Source of the DNA: a virus
Virus record (IMG/VR): IMGVR_UViG_3300037233_000072
Location: 1 to 44,071 of that record
DNA length: 44,071 nt
Reading direction: 5' to 3' (one strand)
Position 1 is the stretch's first letter. Each line of letters opens with the position of its first letter. Under the pieces are notes generated by a model. That model ran no database searches. It was not told the origin of the DNA and saw only the letters and a program-made list of their open reading frames with translations. Positions 230-37,472 of the stretch are shown piece by piece. The translations under genes and the position numbers were made by a program.

Positions 230-352
230 TTAGGCGTGGCTTCTCCGGTGGATTACCGACCAGACCGCCGCTTGCGAAACTCCCATCGTGCGTGCAAGTT
301 GCCCCTGGCTCACACCCTGAGAACGTCGTATCGCTTGGGGAATTATATACAT
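230..352 (-). pseudogene. 3' fragment of interrupted regulator: C-terminal HTH
   Basis: The frame encodes a helix-turn-helix (GVSQGQLARTMGVSQAAVW), ending in RRSHA and TAA at 232-230. It is the severed end of the gene at 1368-2000: removing element A and one copy of ATCGCTTG joins NPEQVQA to IRRSQGVSQ in frame. As it stands, an ATG inside the element's terminal repeat (352-350) could start a 40-residue peptide MYIIPQAIRRSQ..., so the fragment may still be expressed as a lone HTH. Whether it is translated is unknown; no clear Shine-Dalgarno is seen. Confidence 0.75.
330..337. repeat. Target site duplication of element A, left copy
   Basis: ATCGCTTG lies immediately outside the left GGGAATTATATA end of element A; the same 8 bp lies immediately outside its right end at 1381-1388. 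An 8-bp duplication is the size known for the IS1595 family. Confidence 0.9.
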
Positions 353-360
353 GATTGCCC
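338..360 (+). repeat. Element A inverted repeat, left
   Basis: GGGAATTATATAC followed by ATGATTGCCC; the inverse of 1358-1380 with a single C/G difference at position 13. Directly followed by TTGACA, which serves as the -35 box of the passenger promoter. Confidence 0.9.
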
Positions 361-389
361 TTGACAAACGCGGGGCAATCAGCTACTAT
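361..389 (+). promoter_or_regulatory. Element A passenger promoter, predicted leaderless
   Basis: TTGACA at 361-366, a 17-bp spacer, and TACTAT at 384-389. The expected start point (7 nt past the -10) is position 396, which is the A of the ATG of the first passenger gene, so the transcript would have no leader. Element B has the same geometry. Confidence 0.7.
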
Positions 390-395
390 AAGTAT

Positions 396-596
396 ATGGA
401 AAACACATTGACCGCTGGTACGAGAATAGAAGTAAAGGTGCTGCCGTTCGACCCCCCACATTCGGGGATCGTACACGATAATCAAGATGGCGTCATGCCC
501 GGAAAGGTCCGCGTCTTTCTCGATGCTAGGCCGGGCTTGGCTGAAGCGTCCCGGATGACGAGCGTGAAAATCAGCACAGTCAAGGTGACTGCGTGA
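396..596 (+). CDS. Element A passenger 1, 66-residue protein
   Basis: ATG 396 was chosen over the ATG at 351 because the promoter predicts transcription starting on 396, and the upstream ATG lies inside the terminal repeat. The protein (MENTLTAGTRIEVKV...) is beta-rich, with GT/GIV/GKV spacing reminiscent of a small SH3-like barrel, but I do not recognise a family. It ends GTGA, overlapping the next start. No counterpart with clear similarity is seen in element B, although B also has two passengers in this position. Confidence 0.65.
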   Translation: MENTLTAGTRIEVKVLPFDPPHSGIVHDNQDGVMPGKVRVFLDARPGLAEASRMTSVKISTVKVTA

Positions 597-778
597 CATA
601 CGGGAAAAGCTCGGCGGGCAACTATGCCGTTGCTCGCGAGAGCAATAAGATCCACGGCACCTGGGACGCGTGCGAAGTGGATGGCGATCTGTATCGTGTG
701 ATTGACGCAGATGAAATCCCGGAATGCGACTGGGATCGAACGGATGCGCTCGAAGAAGCGGCCAAATCCAGCAAATAA
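593..778 (+). CDS. Element A passenger 2, 61-residue acidic protein
   Basis: GTG start overlaps the stop of passenger 1 (GTGA), indicating translational coupling. The product (MTYGKSSAGNYAVARE...) has an acidic C-terminal half (DADEIPECDWDRTD) and no recognisable motif. It is followed within 2 nt by the transposase ATG. Unknown function; its place within a transposon whose passengers differ between copies suggests exchangeable cargo. Confidence 0.6.
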   Translation: MTYGKSSAGNYAVARESNKIHGTWDACEVDGDLYRVIDADEIPECDWDRTDALEEAAKSSK

Positions 779-779
779 A

Positions 780-1241
780 ATGAGTCAATCCACTATCAGC
801 ACCTTTCAACTTTTCGAGATGTTCCCCGACGAAGAGACGGCACGCAAGTACTTAGAGGATCGCCTTTGGCCGATGGGGGCCATCTGCCCTCAGTGCAAAT
901 CTGGCACGCGCGTAATCGTTCGCCCGAATGGCTTCTATCGCTGCAACGGCTGCAAAAAGTTCACATTCTCTGTCCGCACCGGAACCATTTTCGGTCGCTC
1001 CAAGATTCCACTCCACAAGTGGGTCTATGCCATGTACCTGTTGGTCACTTCGCGCAAAGGTATCTCCTCCATGCAACTGGCAAAGGAAATAGGTGTCACA
1101 CAGAAGACCGCATGGTTCATGCTGCAACGCTTGCGCGAGGCGTGCGGCAATGATTCCGATATCGACAAACTGCGGGGCGTGGTCGAGATTGACGAATGTT
1201 TCGTGGGTGGGAAAGAAGCCAACAAAGAGGTGATCGCGTGA
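780..1241 (+). CDS. Truncated IS1595/ISXO2-type transposase, element A
   Basis: 153 residues. A zinc ribbon (CPQC ... CNGC) is followed by FTFSVRTGTIF and a HTH (ISSMQLAKEIGVTQKTAWFML), the conserved N-terminal DNA-binding half of ISXO2-like transposases. The start of the catalytic domain is still present (VEIDECFVGGKEANK, containing the first Asp of the DDE triad), but the protein then ends in EVIA and a stop overlapping the next GTG. The remaining roughly 150-residue catalytic core is absent from the element in every frame. It could bind the element ends as a repressor or accessory protein but should not cut DNA. Its N-terminal 110 residues are very similar to the element B copy. Confidence 0.9.
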   Translation: MSQSTISTFQLFEMFPDEETARKYLEDRLWPMGAICPQCKSGTRVIVRPNGFYRCNGCKKFTFSVRTGTIFGRSKIPLHKWVYAMYLLVTSRKGISSMQLAKEIGVTQKTAWFMLQRLREACGNDSDIDKLRGVVEIDECFVGGKEANKEVIA

Positions 1242-1348
1242 AGGCCCCTGAGATCCTTGACCGGATCGCGGATAAAGTGTTGGCTTACCATCCGCCAAAT
1301 AAGCCACTGAAGCCAAAGCGGAAGCGCAAGCCGAAGAGGAAGGCGTGA
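1238..1348 (+). CDS. Small lysine/arginine-tailed protein coupled to the transposase, element A
   Basis: 36 residues from GTG 1238, which overlaps the transposase stop (GTGA). It contains LDRIADKVLAYHP followed by a strongly basic tail (KPKRKRKPKRKA). The element B gene in the same place carries LDKMVDAVLAYHP plus a basic tail, so the two are homologous. The basic tail suggests nucleic-acid contact. Conservation of the coupling, while the DDE core is lost, argues that this gene and the DNA-binding half form the retained unit. Too short for database-style recognition. Confidence 0.7.
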   Translation: MKAPEILDRIADKVLAYHPPNKPLKPKRKRKPKRKA

Positions 1349-1357
1349 TGTCAAGAT

Positions 1358-1380
1358 GGGCAATCATCTATATAATTCCC
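1358..1380 (-). repeat. Element A inverted repeat, right
   Basis: Ends TATATAATTCCC and is the inverse of the left repeat with one mismatch. Read on minus it gives ATG GGA ATT ATA TAG to the interrupted regulator gene, so the element itself supplies that gene's new stop codon. Confidence 0.9.
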
Positions 1381-2000
1381 ATCGCTTGCACCTGCTCGGG
1401 ATTGAGCTTACTCCTGTGCCCGCGAAACTTACACTGTCCCCGGTGCGATGCTGGGCGGCCGCATTGACACAAATCAGCCGTAAACCCTTTTTCACGCAAC
1501 CAGCGATACGTTTTCAGTACCATCCATTTGGTATATCCGGTTTTCTCTCCGGCTGGGGCTGCTGAAATCCCCTCCGTAAACAACGGTGTGAGAGATTCAA
1601 TCATCACCTGATCCGCATAACGTCCCGGGCAGATTCCATCGTGCTGTGGTTCCAAACCGCACGGGCACGCATCCGCTGTGTAGCCCAAGACCTTTATCAT
1701 GTCGGCCACCTTCTTTACGGTCTGCGGGGCGTGCTCGGTAGCTCTCGCCGTGGCTCGGATGCTGAGCCCGCTCTTGAGGCTGGCGGCGATTTCCGGTAGG
1801 ATAGCGCTGCCGCGCGGTCGGCCATGCTCAGTGAATCGCTGGCCGCATACGCTACACCGGTATCGCTGCTTTCCACCTTCCGTGAATCCAGCTTTGAAGA
1901 TGGCGACGTGTCCGCAGTTTTCAAATCTGGATCCAACAAGATCGGTGGTGAAGTTTATGATTCGATGGGTGCTGTTTTTGTGGACTGCCGCGCGGATCAT
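1368..2000 (-). pseudogene. Zinc-ribbon/HTH regulator, 5' part, interrupted by element A
   Basis: ATG 2000 lies just after the stop of the preceding gene. Residues about 20-90 resemble the IS1 InsA DNA-binding fold: one Cys/His pair, then RYRCSVCGQRF, then a HTH (SIRATARATEHAPQTVKKV). Two further knuckles follow with the pattern CxCGxxxxHxGxC (CPCGLEPQHDGIC and CQCGRPASHRGQC). The C-terminal HTH is separated on the far side of element A (230-352). The visible frame ends QAMGII with a stop donated by the element. Intact length would be about 244 residues. Probably a phage transcription factor; which genes it controlled is unknown. Confidence 0.75.
1381..1388. repeat. Target site duplication of element A, right copy
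   Basis: ATCGCTTG directly abuts the right end of element A; identical to 330-337. Deleting 338-1388 restores one uninterrupted frame on the minus strand. Confidence 0.9.
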
Positions 2001-2002
2001 GA

Positions 2003-2629
2003 CTACTGAACGACTTGCACCGTTCCATTGGTCGCGCAAACGACACCAGCGCAGGCGACGATGGTCTGCCGCAGATACGCCCTTTGGTCGGTCGCGCTCG
2101 CCGGGAGCCATGCGCCGTTTACGGCTTGGAAGTTCCAGAGGAGTATCGACATCGGCGGAGGTGCTGTTCCGGGAACTGCTGTACATCCGCTGCCACATGT
2201 CGCGCCGGTCGTCCCGGTGATGCTGAAGGCGCCAGTCGGGTCGATGTAGGCGTATTCGGAACCTGAGCCGGTTGCGGGCAACGTGATGACGATGGGCGCA
2301 AGCCATGAAAATACGGTGGTGTTGAGCGCGGCGTTGCAGGGCGCGCTGGTGCTGCACGTCGAGCCGATTGTCAGGGTCGCGCCGTTGGCCGCTGCGTCAA
2401 ACGGCATAACTGGGATGGTGGCGCTGAGAACCCCGGCCGGTGACAGCGTCAGGCCGGGGCCGAGCGTGATGCAAACGAACTGCCCAGCCACGAATCCGAT
2501 GAGGCCGGTGGCGTTGGCTGGGCACGTCCAGAAAGCCTGCGGAGGATTGCTCGAAGAGAGCGGCGTCTGAACGGGTCCAGTGCCCTGGCCATACGAAAGC
2601 GCGGCGAGCGCGAACAGCATCAGTTTCAT
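2003..2629 (-). CDS. Exported Ala/Thr/Gly-rich protein, probably virion-associated
   Basis: ATG 2629 (MKLMLFALAALSYGQG) was chosen over the upstream ATG because it begins a signal-peptide-like stretch and overlaps the endolysin stop (ATGA). About 208 residues. The mature part is rich in small residues and has paired cysteines (CSTSAPCN, CGSGC), typical of fibre or appendage proteins. It shares its style (signal-like start, then QGTGPVQTP) with the SGNH hydrolase at 31096. A tail-fibre-like or surface role is inferred. It could also be a lysis-time envelope protein given its neighbours. Confidence 0.6.
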   Translation of the reverse strand: MKLMLFALAALSYGQGTGPVQTPLSSSNPPQAFWTCPANATGLIGFVAGQFVCITLGPGLTLSPAGVLSATIPVMPFDAAANGATLTIGSTCSTSAPCNAALNTTVFSWLAPIVITLPATGSGSEYAYIDPTGAFSITGTTGATCGSGCTAVPGTAPPPMSILLWNFQAVNGAWLPASATDQRAYLRQTIVACAGVVCATNGTVQVVQ

Positions 2630-10435: not shown

Positions 10436-10668
10436 CTGAAACCATACAAATCGCTACAGATTTATGCCTTGTCCACCAGATGCGTAACTTGAACGACATG
10501 CTGGACGCGGACGTGGGCGACCACATTCAGGATGAGGAGCATGCCGCCGTGCGGCGCATCCTACGAAGCTGGGAGAATCGCCTGCAAGACGCACTGCCAA
10601 GTGAGCGGCGCCGGCGGAAAGACGCAGGAACGAAGCGGGAGCCTACCTTGCCGGGGGTGAGCGCGTGA
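10432..10668 (+). CDS. Unrecognised protein carrying the first copy of a 61-bp repeat
   Basis: 78 residues from GTG 10432. The helical body (EEHAAVRRILRSWENRL) is followed by a basic tail (ERRRRKDAGTKREPTLPG). The last 61 bp of the gene are repeated exactly at 11466-11526, marking the left edge of a tandem duplication. Coupled to the next gene by GTGA. Confidence 0.6.
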   Translation: MTETIQIATDLCLVHQMRNLNDMLDADVGDHIQDEEHAAVRRILRSWENRLQDALPSERRRRKDAGTKREPTLPGVSA

Positions 10669-11463
10669 AATCCCCGCAGGAAATAGCCAGCAAGATTGCG
10701 CTTGACCCAGGAACGCACTCACGCCAGGAACAATACGAGAAGATTTATATTGCGATTGAGGAGCGCGACAAAGAGCACGCCGCCGCGCTGGAGGCCATAT
10801 GCGGAAAACACGAGACGGACTGCCTGGAACTTATTGACAATCGCGACGAGGTCCAAGAGGCGTTCGACGAACTGGTAGCCATGTTGGAAGTAGATACCGA
10901 ATATTCCAACATGCGCGGGTTCGCGGAAATACTAGCAGATTGCAGCTCGGCGATTGACCACGGAGTCGGCAAGGAATGGATAGCAAAGCACGGCAACCCG
11001 GCTGAATTGCGTACAGAGGTGGAGCGCCTTAGAGAGGCACTCAACATTCCCGAAATCGAAGACTTTGATAAGGCCATTCCCTTGGAGGCAGCACATCAAG
11101 TGCAACGTTGGGGCGTCGACCATGACTCAGGAAAGCAGCCTGAGGATTGGTTCTGGCTAGTTGGATATCTAGCTGGCAAAGCGCTGTCAGCCATCAAATC
11201 CGACAACGCCGAAAAAGCTAAACATCATTGCATCAGTGCAGCAGCAGCGTTGAGAAATTGGCACGCCCACATTCGGAGCGGTTCGAGTGTGATGCGACCC
11301 GGAATAGCAGATCCGTTTGCGGCCCTTGCGGGAGATAAGAAGGAGCCCAAATCATGAGCCAATCGCTTTATCGAATCCAGCAAGACCTTGAACAGCTCGC
11401 CGCGCTGCGCGAATCCGCGGAACTGGAAGGCGACTCCGAAGCGCTGAAGGTCATCGACCAGCC
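10608..11463 (+). repeat. Tandem duplication, unit 1
   Basis: The unit begins with a 61-bp block (10608-10668) and ends with the first part of a Gp157-like gene (to 11463). Unit 2 begins at 11466 with the identical 61 bp. The last 140 bp of both units are nearly identical, while the interior has diverged. Confidence 0.75.
10665..11357 (+). CDS. Phage protein with C-terminal WG/PEDWF domain
   Basis: 230 residues from GTG 10665. The N-terminal half is a long charged coiled coil (RDKEHAAALE, EVERLREAL). The C-terminal half contains QRWGVDHDSGKQPEDWFWL, then GYLAGKALSAI and HHCISAAAALRNWHAHI. I recall this as a conserved domain of phage and prophage proteins of unknown function, possibly metal-binding through the paired histidines. 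Its paralogue in the second duplication unit has lost this domain. Confidence 0.7.
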   Translation: MKSPQEIASKIALDPGTHSRQEQYEKIYIAIEERDKEHAAALEAICGKHETDCLELIDNRDEVQEAFDELVAMLEVDTEYSNMRGFAEILADCSSAIDHGVGKEWIAKHGNPAELRTEVERLREALNIPEIEDFDKAIPLEAAHQVQRWGVDHDSGKQPEDWFWLVGYLAGKALSAIKSDNAEKAKHHCISAAAALRNWHAHIRSGSSVMRPGIADPFAALAGDKKEPKS

Positions 11464-11518
11464 TAGCGCCGGCGGAAAGACGCAGGAACGAAGCGGGAGC
11501 CTACCTTGCCGGGGGTGA
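11354..11518 (+). pseudogene. Truncated copy of the Gp157-like gene
   Basis: 54 codons. The first 37 match the start of the gene at 12005 (MSQSLYRIQQDLE ... ALKVIDQ). The frame then runs into the 61-bp repeat in a foreign frame and stops at TGA 11516-11518. It is a by-product of the duplication junction at about 11463. It keeps the same ATGA overlap with the upstream gene, so it is probably still translated. Confidence 0.75.
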
Positions 11519-12113
11519 GCGCGTGAGCCAAGCATTGCAGCAATCGCCTTGCCCCGGTGCTGGGTCTTACCCCTGTATTCGCGGTAATCACCCGATATTT
11601 CTGCGAAACAACTTTTCTGTGGTTCCGCATTATGGAGAACTCGGAGAACGATGCGGAGCGAATGAGACAATCTATCCGCCGCACATTGCGCGTGCCTTTG
11701 ACAGGGCTGAGGAGCATGACAAGGAGCACGCCTCCGCGCTGGCAGAGTTGACGAAAACGGCTACGGCTCTTGCGGTGGAGCGGGATGACCTGCGGGAGGC
11801 CCTGTACATCTCAGAACAGCAGGTGGAGCGCCTTAGAGAGGCACTCACGCAGATACGCAACGATGTTGCTAGTCGCTCTTGCAAGTGGGCAAACCCGTTA
11901 CGGCCCGTATTGTCCGACGTTTTGCGCAAGGCTGACGCGGCCCTTGCGGAAAAGACAGGTCCGCCCCGTGCGGCCCTTGCGGGAGATAAGAAGGAGCCCA
12001 AATCATGAGCCAATCGCTTTATCGAATTCAGCAGGACCTTGAATCCCTCGCCGCGCTGCGCGAATCCGCGGAGCTCGAGGGCGACTCCGAAGCACTGAAG
12101 GTGATTGACCAGC
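11466..12113 (+). repeat. Tandem duplication, unit 2
   Basis: Starts with the exact 61-bp repeat and ends with the start of the intact Gp157-like gene. It is about 210 bp shorter than unit 1 because the paralogous gene inside has lost its C-terminal domain and gained a different N-terminus. Confidence 0.7.
11523..12008 (+). CDS. Diverged paralogue of the 10665 gene
   Basis: 161 residues from GTG 11523, which lies in the repeated block. It shares with the upstream paralogue the segments EEHDKEHASALAE, VERLREAL and the C-terminus AALAGDKKEPKS, but lacks the WG/PEDWF domain and has an unrelated first 55 residues. Coiled coil in the middle. It overlaps the Gp157-like gene by ATGA exactly as unit 1 does. 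Confidence 0.6.
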   Translation: MSQALQQSPCPGAGSYPCIRGNHPIFLRNNFSVVPHYGELGERCGANETIYPPHIARAFDRAEEHDKEHASALAELTKTATALAVERDDLREALYISEQQVERLREALTQIRNDVASRSCKWANPLRPVLSDVLRKADAALAEKTGPPRAALAGDKKEPKS

Positions 12114-36195: not shown

Positions 36196-36203
36196 AAGAT
36201 TAT
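36196..36203. repeat. Target site duplication of element B, left copy
   Basis: AAGATTAT abuts the GGGAATTATATA end of element B. The other copy is at 37465-37472 and overlaps the stop codon of the glycosyltransferase gene. Confidence 0.9.
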
Positions 36204-36247
36204 GGGAATTATATAGGTGACTACATCCATCGTTAAGCCTCATCGGG

Positions 36248-36436
36248 TTAGCCTTTCGCCTTCTTCGTGGCCTTGCGACGGCGTTTCTTCGCCGCCTTGG
36301 ACTTCGGTTTGGGGTGGTAGGCCAGCACTGCGTCTACCATCTTGTCGAGCATACATCGATGACTATGATAGCCGTCCATTCCTCCGCAAGACGCGCACGG
36401 TGGATTCTCTGAGCGCACTGTCACTTTGCCGATCAT
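36248..36436 (-). CDS. Basic-tailed zinc-knuckle protein coupled to the transposase, element B
   Basis: 62 residues; ATG overlaps the transposase stop (ATGA). A Cys/His cluster CASCGGMDGYHSHRC is followed by LDKMVDAVLAYHP and a tail of lysines and arginines. The element A homologue keeps the LAYHP and basic tail but lacks the zinc knuckle. Likely nucleic-acid binding. Retention with coupling in both elements, while the DDE core is lost, is notable. Confidence 0.7.
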   Translation of the reverse strand: MIGKVTVRSENPPCASCGGMDGYHSHRCMLDKMVDAVLAYHPKPKSKAAKKRRRKATKKAKG

Positions 36437-36831
36437 GCGATGAGCCTCTTGTACGTCAGCCGCAGGCGACCGAGGATAAACCACGCCGTCTTTTGGGTGA
36501 CGCCGATTTCCTTGGCGAGCTGGAGGCTGCTGATACCCTTCCGCGCCGTCACCAGCAAGTACATGCCGTAAAGCCACTTATGCAGCGGGACCTTAGACCG
36601 CTCGAAAATGGTGTTCGTACGGATCGTGAAGTCGAAGTTGCAAGTCAGGCAGCGGTAGAAGCCAGCCTTGCGCGTGGCGCACGTCCCCAGGGCGCTCACG
36701 CGCTCACCAGACTTGCAGTCGGGGCAGACCGGACCCTTGGGCCAGAGCCGATCTTCCAGGTACACACGGGCCGTCTCTTCGTCGGGGAACAGCGCAAACA
36801 GTTGGAAGGTGCTGATAGTGGAGCGCGACAT
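36433..36831 (-). CDS. Truncated IS1595/ISXO2-type transposase, element B
   Basis: 132 residues. Zinc ribbon CPDC ... CLTC, then FDFTIRTNTIFERSKVPLHKW and the HTH ISSLQLAKEIGVTQKTAWFIL. It then jumps to LTYKRLIA and stops, so even the first catalytic Asp kept in element A is missing. LTYKRLIA may be the original C-terminus of the full protein, which would imply an internal in-frame deletion of the DDE core. Should bind DNA but not transpose by itself. Confidence 0.88.
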   Translation of the reverse strand: MSRSTISTFQLFALFPDEETARVYLEDRLWPKGPVCPDCKSGERVSALGTCATRKAGFYRCLTCNFDFTIRTNTIFERSKVPLHKWLYGMYLLVTARKGISSLQLAKEIGVTQKTAWFILGRLRLTYKRLIA

Positions 36832-37044
36832 TTACTTTGCCCCCACTGGCGAAGTGATGTCATAGGAATAGCTCTTCCAGGCCGAGCCACTGTTGCGGCG
36901 TGCGTCAATACGCTTGTGGGAGTCTTTGACCGTTCCGGTTCCAGTCTTTCGGACTACTACGTCGCCGATCCGAGCGACACGGTAGGCCCGAATCAGAAAA
37001 CCTTGAAGCGATTCCATTTCGCCCTGCATAAGTATATGTTTCAT
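36832..37044 (-). CDS. Element B passenger 2, 70-residue basic protein
   Basis: ATG 37044 lies 3 nt after the preceding stop; GAGAGG is about 11 nt upstream. It contains IGDVVVRKTGTGTVKDSHKR, a basic beta-strand region, and ends SYDITSPVGAK. No family recognised. The next ATG (transposase) follows its TAA directly. Confidence 0.55.
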   Translation of the reverse strand: MKHILMQGEMESLQGFLIRAYRVARIGDVVVRKTGTGTVKDSHKRIDARRNSGSAWKSYSYDITSPVGAK

Positions 37045-37047
37045 GGC

Positions 37048-37362
37048 CTAGATCCTCTCCGTGTCGGATACCATCGCTTCGGCTTCAATTTCGCGCTCGT
37101 ACTGCGTCCGGTAGCCAGCGGGCCTCAGTTCGTAGCGATAGACACCGTTGCCCCAAACCTTTCGCAGTTCGGTATTAGCGGGCTGGACGAACCCGACCCG
37201 TTCTACCTCTCCAGCCGAAAGGCTTACGATTTTCAGAGCCGCTTTCGCGCAAGCCGATTGCGGGAGCGGGCCATTTGGGTCCAATTCACAGGCACAGTCA
37301 TCACCGGGACGGTCGCATACGTAGCACCAGTCTGGATCGGGGTTTGTTTTTGTGTTATCCAT
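37048..37362 (-). CDS. Element B passenger 1, 104-residue protein
   Basis: ATG 37362 is chosen over 37377 because the promoter predicts transcription starting there. The N-terminus has CYVCDRPGDDCACE, a compact Cys cluster (probable zinc). The rest is mixed alpha/beta (VYRYELRPAGYRTQYEREI). No counterpart in element A by sequence. Function unknown. Confidence 0.6.
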   Translation of the reverse strand: MDNTKTNPDPDWCYVCDRPGDDCACELDPNGPLPQSACAKAALKIVSLSAGEVERVGFVQPANTELRKVWGNGVYRYELRPAGYRTQYEREIEAEAMVSDTERI

Positions 37363-37368
37363 ACCTGT

Positions 37369-37397
37369 ATGATACATGGCTACACCGATGTAGTCAA
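37369..37397 (-). promoter_or_regulatory. Element B passenger promoter, predicted leaderless
   Basis: On minus, TTGACT (37397-37392), 17-bp spacer, TATCAT (37374-37369). The expected start is 37362, the A of the passenger ATG. A second TTGACTACAT occurs beside the terminal repeat about 50 bp upstream. Confidence 0.7.
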
Positions 37398-37464
37398 GTA
37401 CAAACCGAGGCTCGATGAAAGATTTGTGTAGAGAAGGCGAATGTAGTCAATGTATATAATTCCC

Positions 37465-37472
37465 AAGATTAT
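37465..37472. repeat. Target site duplication of element B, right copy
   Basis: AAGATTAT outside the TATATAATTCCC end. Read on minus it includes the TAA stop (37471-37469) of the adjacent glycosyltransferase gene. Confidence 0.9.

Follow-up and report, generated by a model that had tools for sequence, protein, structure and literature searches.

Transposons in phages are generally thought to be purged. The described elements most similar to the two analyzed here, A and B, are the IS1595 insertion sequences (ISXO2-like transposases), whose founding paper is reportedly Siguier 2009. Zinc ribbon, HTH and DDE domains are shared by their transposases and the full-length relatives of A and B, and the likeness extends to inverted repeats starting with GGG, 8-bp A/T-rich target duplications and passenger genes. 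A and B differ in having no DDE core, and in a coupled basic gene and a copy of the end motif in the promoter, neither of which is described in the open literature searched. Our literature searches, made among open papers, likewise turned up no account of this phage family.

Three other systems offer partial parallels. InsA of IS1 consists of a zinc finger and HTH only; the IS1 promoter lies partly in the IRL, and InsA acts as a transcriptional repressor and prevails over the transposase in competition for both repeats (PMC12428005). A and B likewise encode a zinc finger and HTH without a catalytic domain, and their promoters overlap the predicted end-binding sequence. However, InsA is made from every intact IS1 when frameshifting fails, whereas the fragments of A and B arise by deletion in separate elements and not by programmed frameshifting, and the likeness therefore concerns only how the proteins would work. 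The KP elements of Drosophila are internally deleted P elements that encode a repressor (PMC7776569, PMC12393704). As in A and B, the deletion removes catalysis but spares the ends and the DNA-binding domain, leaving the element non-autonomous. The transposases are unrelated, however, and repression has been demonstrated for KP, whereas for A and B it is a prediction; KP has also spread in populations, whereas the junctions of A and B each occur just once in IMG/VR. Mobile insertion cassettes (MICs, e.g. MIC231 of Bacillus cereus) similarly place passengers between insertion sequence ends, are mobilized in trans and are modular. They contain no part of a transposase, whereas A and B retain 153 and 132 codons. 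The absence of transposase coding sequence that defines a MITE or MIC characterizes 45 other elements of this family, which the MIC description suits better than A and B.

In this study, we examine a 44,071-bp virus record from IMG/VR, analyzed at full length and referred to as the window, which encodes a phage portal protein (PHROG 10963, 3.4e-52). Elements A and B (Table 1) both have the matching inverted repeats and 8-bp target duplication of IS1595-type elements. The end sequence GGGAATTATATA occurs four times when one mismatch is allowed, and all four occurrences are exact (chance expectation 0.06). An initial annotation had proposed that the two elements share a promoter, two passengers, a zinc-ribbon/HTH fragment and an overlapping basic gene. 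Every part of this layout was confirmed, and the gene order is the same in both: sigma70-like promoter, two small passengers, truncated transposase, basic gene. Positions 780-1348 comprise exactly the truncated transposase and basic gene of A.

Table 1. Features of elements A and B in the window.
Feature	Position	Strand	Description
Element A, 1043 bp	338-1380	+	Non-autonomous IS1595-type; exact GGGAATTATATA inverted ends and target duplication
Target duplication of A, 8 bp	330-337 and 1381-1388		ATCGCTTG twice, exact
Promoter of A	361-389	+	Predicted by consensus scan; sigma70-like, TTGACA-17-TACTAT
Putative operator of A	373-382	+	Inverted 9/10 copy of subterminal motif ATGATTGCCC, between -35 and -10
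Passenger 1 of A, 66 aa	396-596	+	ORF
Passenger 2 of A, 61 aa	593-778	+	ORF; overlaps stop of passenger 1 of A
Truncated transposase A, 153 aa	780-1241	+	ATG 780, stop TGA 1239-1241; zinc ribbon and HTH, first DDE residues, tail EVIA
Basic gene A, 36 aa	1238-1348	+	GTG start 1238 inside transposase stop; stop 1346-1348; overlap GTGA
Element B, 1261 bp	36204-37464	-	Non-autonomous IS1595-type; exact GGGAATTATATA inverted ends and target duplication
Target duplication of B, 8 bp	36196-36203 and 37465-37472		AAGATTAT twice, exact
Promoter of B	37369-37397	-	Predicted; sigma70-like, TTGACT-17-TATCAT
Putative operator of B	37388-37397	-	Direct copy of repeat motif TGACTACAT, covering -35
Passenger 1 of B, 104 aa	37048-37362	-	ORF; cysteine-containing
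Passenger 2 of B, 70 aa	36832-37044	-	ORF
Truncated transposase B, 132 aa	36433-36831	-	Zinc ribbon and HTH joined to LTYKRLIA; junction near 36459
Basic gene B, 62 aa	36248-36436	-	Cysteine/histidine N-terminal extension; ATGA overlap with transposase

The passengers of A show no relatedness to those of B. Neither A passenger, nor passenger 2 of B, has a Pfam or PHROG match or a relative among the fetched loci, and the sole similarity of B passenger 1 is over 19 residues to one passenger of the element in locus L299. Across the family, clustering of 168 passenger ORFs gave 136 groups, which bears out the suggestion that the cassette is modular.

Some features of the surrounding DNA were also recorded. 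A splits a phage gene at its 3' end (window 1368-2357 on the minus strand and about 230-337), and its flanks, when joined, restore an HTH-like tail, IRRSQGVSQGQLARTMGVSQAAVWSVIHRRSHA, behind a zinc-ribbon-containing protein. B lies immediately downstream of a glycosyltransferase-like gene whose stop codon is overlapped by the target duplication at 37465-37472 and left intact. Direct repeats at 10608-12113 (145 bp at 11318/11969, 92%; 61 bp at 10608/11466, 100%) suggest that a region of small genes was partly duplicated in recent times.

Both transposase fragments matched the IS1595 zinc ribbon (Pfam PF12760) above the curated cut-off, at 4.6e-9 in A and 1.2e-7 in B. The DDE domain PF12762, which matched a related full-length protein in L003 at 1.7e-37, is represented in A by positions 1-33 of 153 only, below the cut-off, and in B not at all; no match above the cut-off was found anywhere in the 44,071-bp record. 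The catalytic core is thus missing from both, as first described, and A and B are derivatives of the IS1595 family rather than complete members. The short tails EVIA in A and LTYKRLIA in B preserve the overlap with the next gene, as had been noticed, and in the full-length transposase they form the native C-terminus (consensus GKRLTYxxLxA). Because this native tail is kept, the DDE core was lost by internal deletion.

In A, the junction runs from GGKEANK to EVIA across a 5-bp repeat, ACAAA, at 1222-1226; it was placed from A itself and conserved family residues, since none of the full-length relatives found is close to A. The nearest relative, L299, is 98% identical in amino acid sequence over 121 residues, carries a different deletion and ends in YKEVIA. 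Residues 1-124 of B are 98% identical to the full-length protein of L002/L143, after which B switches to LTYKRLIA. A quick tree with open forks placed A and L299 as sisters without a close full-length relative and clustered B with L143. AlphaFold2 modeling ended the HTH helices at residue 126 and began the first DDE strand at 143, and the B fragment alone gave a confident model (pLDDT 82.8, pTM 0.72). In INPHARED no close relative was found (best 38%). PDB searches with the binding domain returned weak resemblances only, to HTH regulators and zinc-ribbon subunits. The unnamed family PHROG 25593 matches the transposase and probably contains IS1595-type phage transposases.

Scans of viral records in IMG/VR, which are fragments in which assembly errors could imitate some junctions, identified 146 different elements flanked by matching target duplications. 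Of these, 86 are full-length, 12 retain just the binding domain, 3 retain just the C-terminal part and 45 have no transposase. Full-length copies lie in related phages. Target duplications in a first set of 120 elements averaged 80% A+T, as compared to 42% in the loci, and 1561-bp elements, identical or nearly so, occupy different target duplications in L026, L028, L029 and L045, indicating that the family has moved recently. Loss of the DDE core is convergent and widespread in this family. Retention of the binding domain is not the rule, however, since sampling by repeat pattern gave 44 transposase-less elements versus 8 with the binding domain (plus 42 full-length and 3 C-terminal-only); a claim that the domain is always kept was dropped after this sampling.

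Three frames were read after every non-full-length N-terminus, and the deletion junctions were sorted by eye after the data were seen. The native-tail frame is kept at ten (A, B, L299, L159, L324, L064, L037, L352, L338 and L449), while at four (L284, L056, L044 and L119) the frame is lost before the basic gene. Where the junction lies inside the basic gene, it is in frame with it in 4/4 cases (L007, L306, L079 and L450); the shifted frame of L284 also enters the basic gene, a fifth fusion of binding domain and basic protein. In total, 14 of 18 independent junctions keep frame or fuse in frame, the expectation being 1/3 (p=1.4e-4), with 10/14 on the tail side only (p=0.004). Without L037, whose native tail is not established, and L338, a small deletion inside the DDE domain, the counts are 12/16 (p=8e-4) and 8/12 (p=0.019). 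The test left out L055, which has two junctions, L011/L186 and L467, in which foreign sequence intervenes, and also copies without the native 3' side and frameshifted copies without a deletion. Independent in-frame deletions that keep the binding domain and basic gene, as postulated for A and B, thus recur across the family; A and B are not the only truncated copies, nor are their frames broken.

Ordinary decay, in which competent elements undergo recent internal deletions and the functionless fragments are soon lost, is a rival explanation that we consider quite possible, if short of probable. Every truncation is a singleton: at the codon level, the A and B junctions have no second copy across IMG/VR (one chance match to the unrelated L376, and none, respectively), and a spreading truncated lineage is unsupported, no truncated junction having been seen twice. 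All kinds of deletion occur, including transposase-less, C-terminal-only and out-of-frame ones, and the 5-bp repeat at the A junction is typical of replication slippage. The median dN/dS of fragments against their nearest full-length copies (0.087) equals that of full-length pairs (0.090), as a young truncation would give; the truncated set also included contig-end and broken copies, and the comparison therefore does not discriminate function from youth. Low dN/dS is also seen in plainly broken copies, and the ratio serves only to bound neutral drift (A vs L299: dS 1.67, dN 0.027). What speaks against decay is that frame or fusion is kept at most junctions, that the piece lost is nearly always just the DDE core, and that binding domain, operator and basic gene are retained together.

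The basic gene, recognized by the motif LDxIADxVLxYRPKPKxK followed by a K/R-rich tail, is a trait of the whole family and not peculiar to truncated elements. In the first set it was present in 72 of 80 full-length elements, in 9 or more of the 11 with the binding domain, in all 3 C-terminal ones and in none of the 26 lacking a transposase; in the larger set, under a looser rule, the respective counts are 81/86, 11/12, 3/3 and 3/45. Truncated IS1595 transposases with this neighbor, which the initial annotation had suggested seeking, were found, as were full-length relatives that have matching ends, the tail and the coupled basic gene. Selection might instead act on the basic protein and not on the DNA-binding fragment, which would be kept only as an in-frame leader that brings ribosomes to the overlapping start codon. 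The precise retention of the tail and of the GTGA/ATGA overlap agrees with this, as does the presence of the basic gene without the domain in C-terminal-only elements and its coupling to a passenger in L177. But the near absence of the gene from transposase-less elements, the whole binding domain kept in the fusions L007, L306, L079 and L450, and the fact that a short leader would do as well as an intact 120-residue domain make this explanation unlikely.

For each element, the 10 bases at positions 14-23 of the right end, inside the repeat, were sought in bases 24-110 of its own left end, allowing up to two mismatches. A motif copy was present in 38/73 non-redundant elements, as against 14.7% for foreign motifs and 4-6% for interior windows (Wilcoxon p=1.1e-5), and the copies co-vary with the repeat of their own element across the family. 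They usually lie either inverted, 12 bases past the -35 start and abutting the -10, or direct, on the -35. Only about half of the elements have such a copy; in many others the -35 sits inside the repeat itself. With an end motif in the promoter, or the -35 in the repeat, a domain that binds the ends should also occlude the promoter. The operator is kept in 8/11 binding-domain versus 1/26 transposase-less elements (Fisher p=3.5e-5), an association that could reflect the mere extent of the left end deleted.

From the co-occurrence of the binding domain and the promoter motif, we infer repression of the promoter and competition for the ends. The best explanation, held with about as much confidence as doubt, is that A and B are internally deleted, non-autonomous members of an IS1595-type family frequent in environmental phages, making an InsA-like protein that represses its own promoter and competes for ends. 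Promoter, passengers, binding domain and basic gene would form one operon in each. The zinc-ribbon/HTH domain is predicted to bind the subterminal motif of its own ends, and would in this way repress its own promoter, i.e. the cargo operon, and, like InsA, compete against full-length transposase at the ends that related elements carry. The basic protein probably acts on DNA alongside the fragment, for example by adding non-specific affinity; in five relatives it is fused to the domain. A and B probably entered the phage in trans, or shortly before the deletion.

A domesticated regulator, controlling phage genes rather than the transposon, is a far less credible role. The fragment is indeed found in phage genomes, and BFVD contains a 125-aa viral protein that shares the fold of the B fragment from end to end (TM 0.82-0.87). 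A and B are marked as mobile and recent, however, by their perfect repeats and target duplications, the promoter-operator pairing is internal to the element, and the phage genomes showed no conserved location for it. The initial view that fragment and basic protein form a useful unit is partly supported: recurrent truncation, the kept frame and the end motif in the promoter speak for it, and the basic gene of most full-length elements, the lack of spread of any truncated lineage and the excess of transposase-less over binding-domain elements speak against it. Domestication is unproven.

Other members of the family vary widely in content. Among 40 passengers scanned from other elements (e.g. 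L027, L031, L061, L062, L292 and L350), recognizable domains are mostly for DNA modification: C5 methylase (6), N6/N4 methylase (2), Dam (1), Mom (1), PAPS reductase domain (3) and PTPS/QueD-like (1). The IS1595-type phage family may thus shuttle anti-restriction genes among phages. Transposase-less elements (L183, L168, L170, L100, L097 and L123) span 190-1500 bp, mostly without promoter and operator, and several have a ribosome-binding-like sequence and start codon immediately following the repeat, resembling promoterless gene cassettes that depend on phage transcription. At L040 (1727-6070) and L083, one element is apparently nested in or beside another, and a 341-aa protein joins a full-length transposase to the basic protein. 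Relatives also occur in seven bacterial genomes (L201-L217, G047-G053), at most one element in each, with chromosomal, plasmid-like (replication initiation, ParA) or integrase genes as neighbors in the loci inspected; these single copies rule out a phage-only habitat.

A possible but doubtful extension is that transposons of this phage family become self-limiting cargo operons time and again, in which the operator-linked domain left by DDE loss and the coupled or fused basic protein are a trans-acting immunity unit against new insertions of full-length relatives, carrying passengers (in relatives often DNA-modification genes) between phages. If the repression and competition proposed here hold, A and B would parallel the KP element in prokaryotes, as deletion derivatives policing their own transposon family, in phages. 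The binding domain and coupled basic protein would constitute a two-protein repressor, fused in five relatives, and the transposon family itself may be a vehicle that passes DNA-modification genes from phage to phage.
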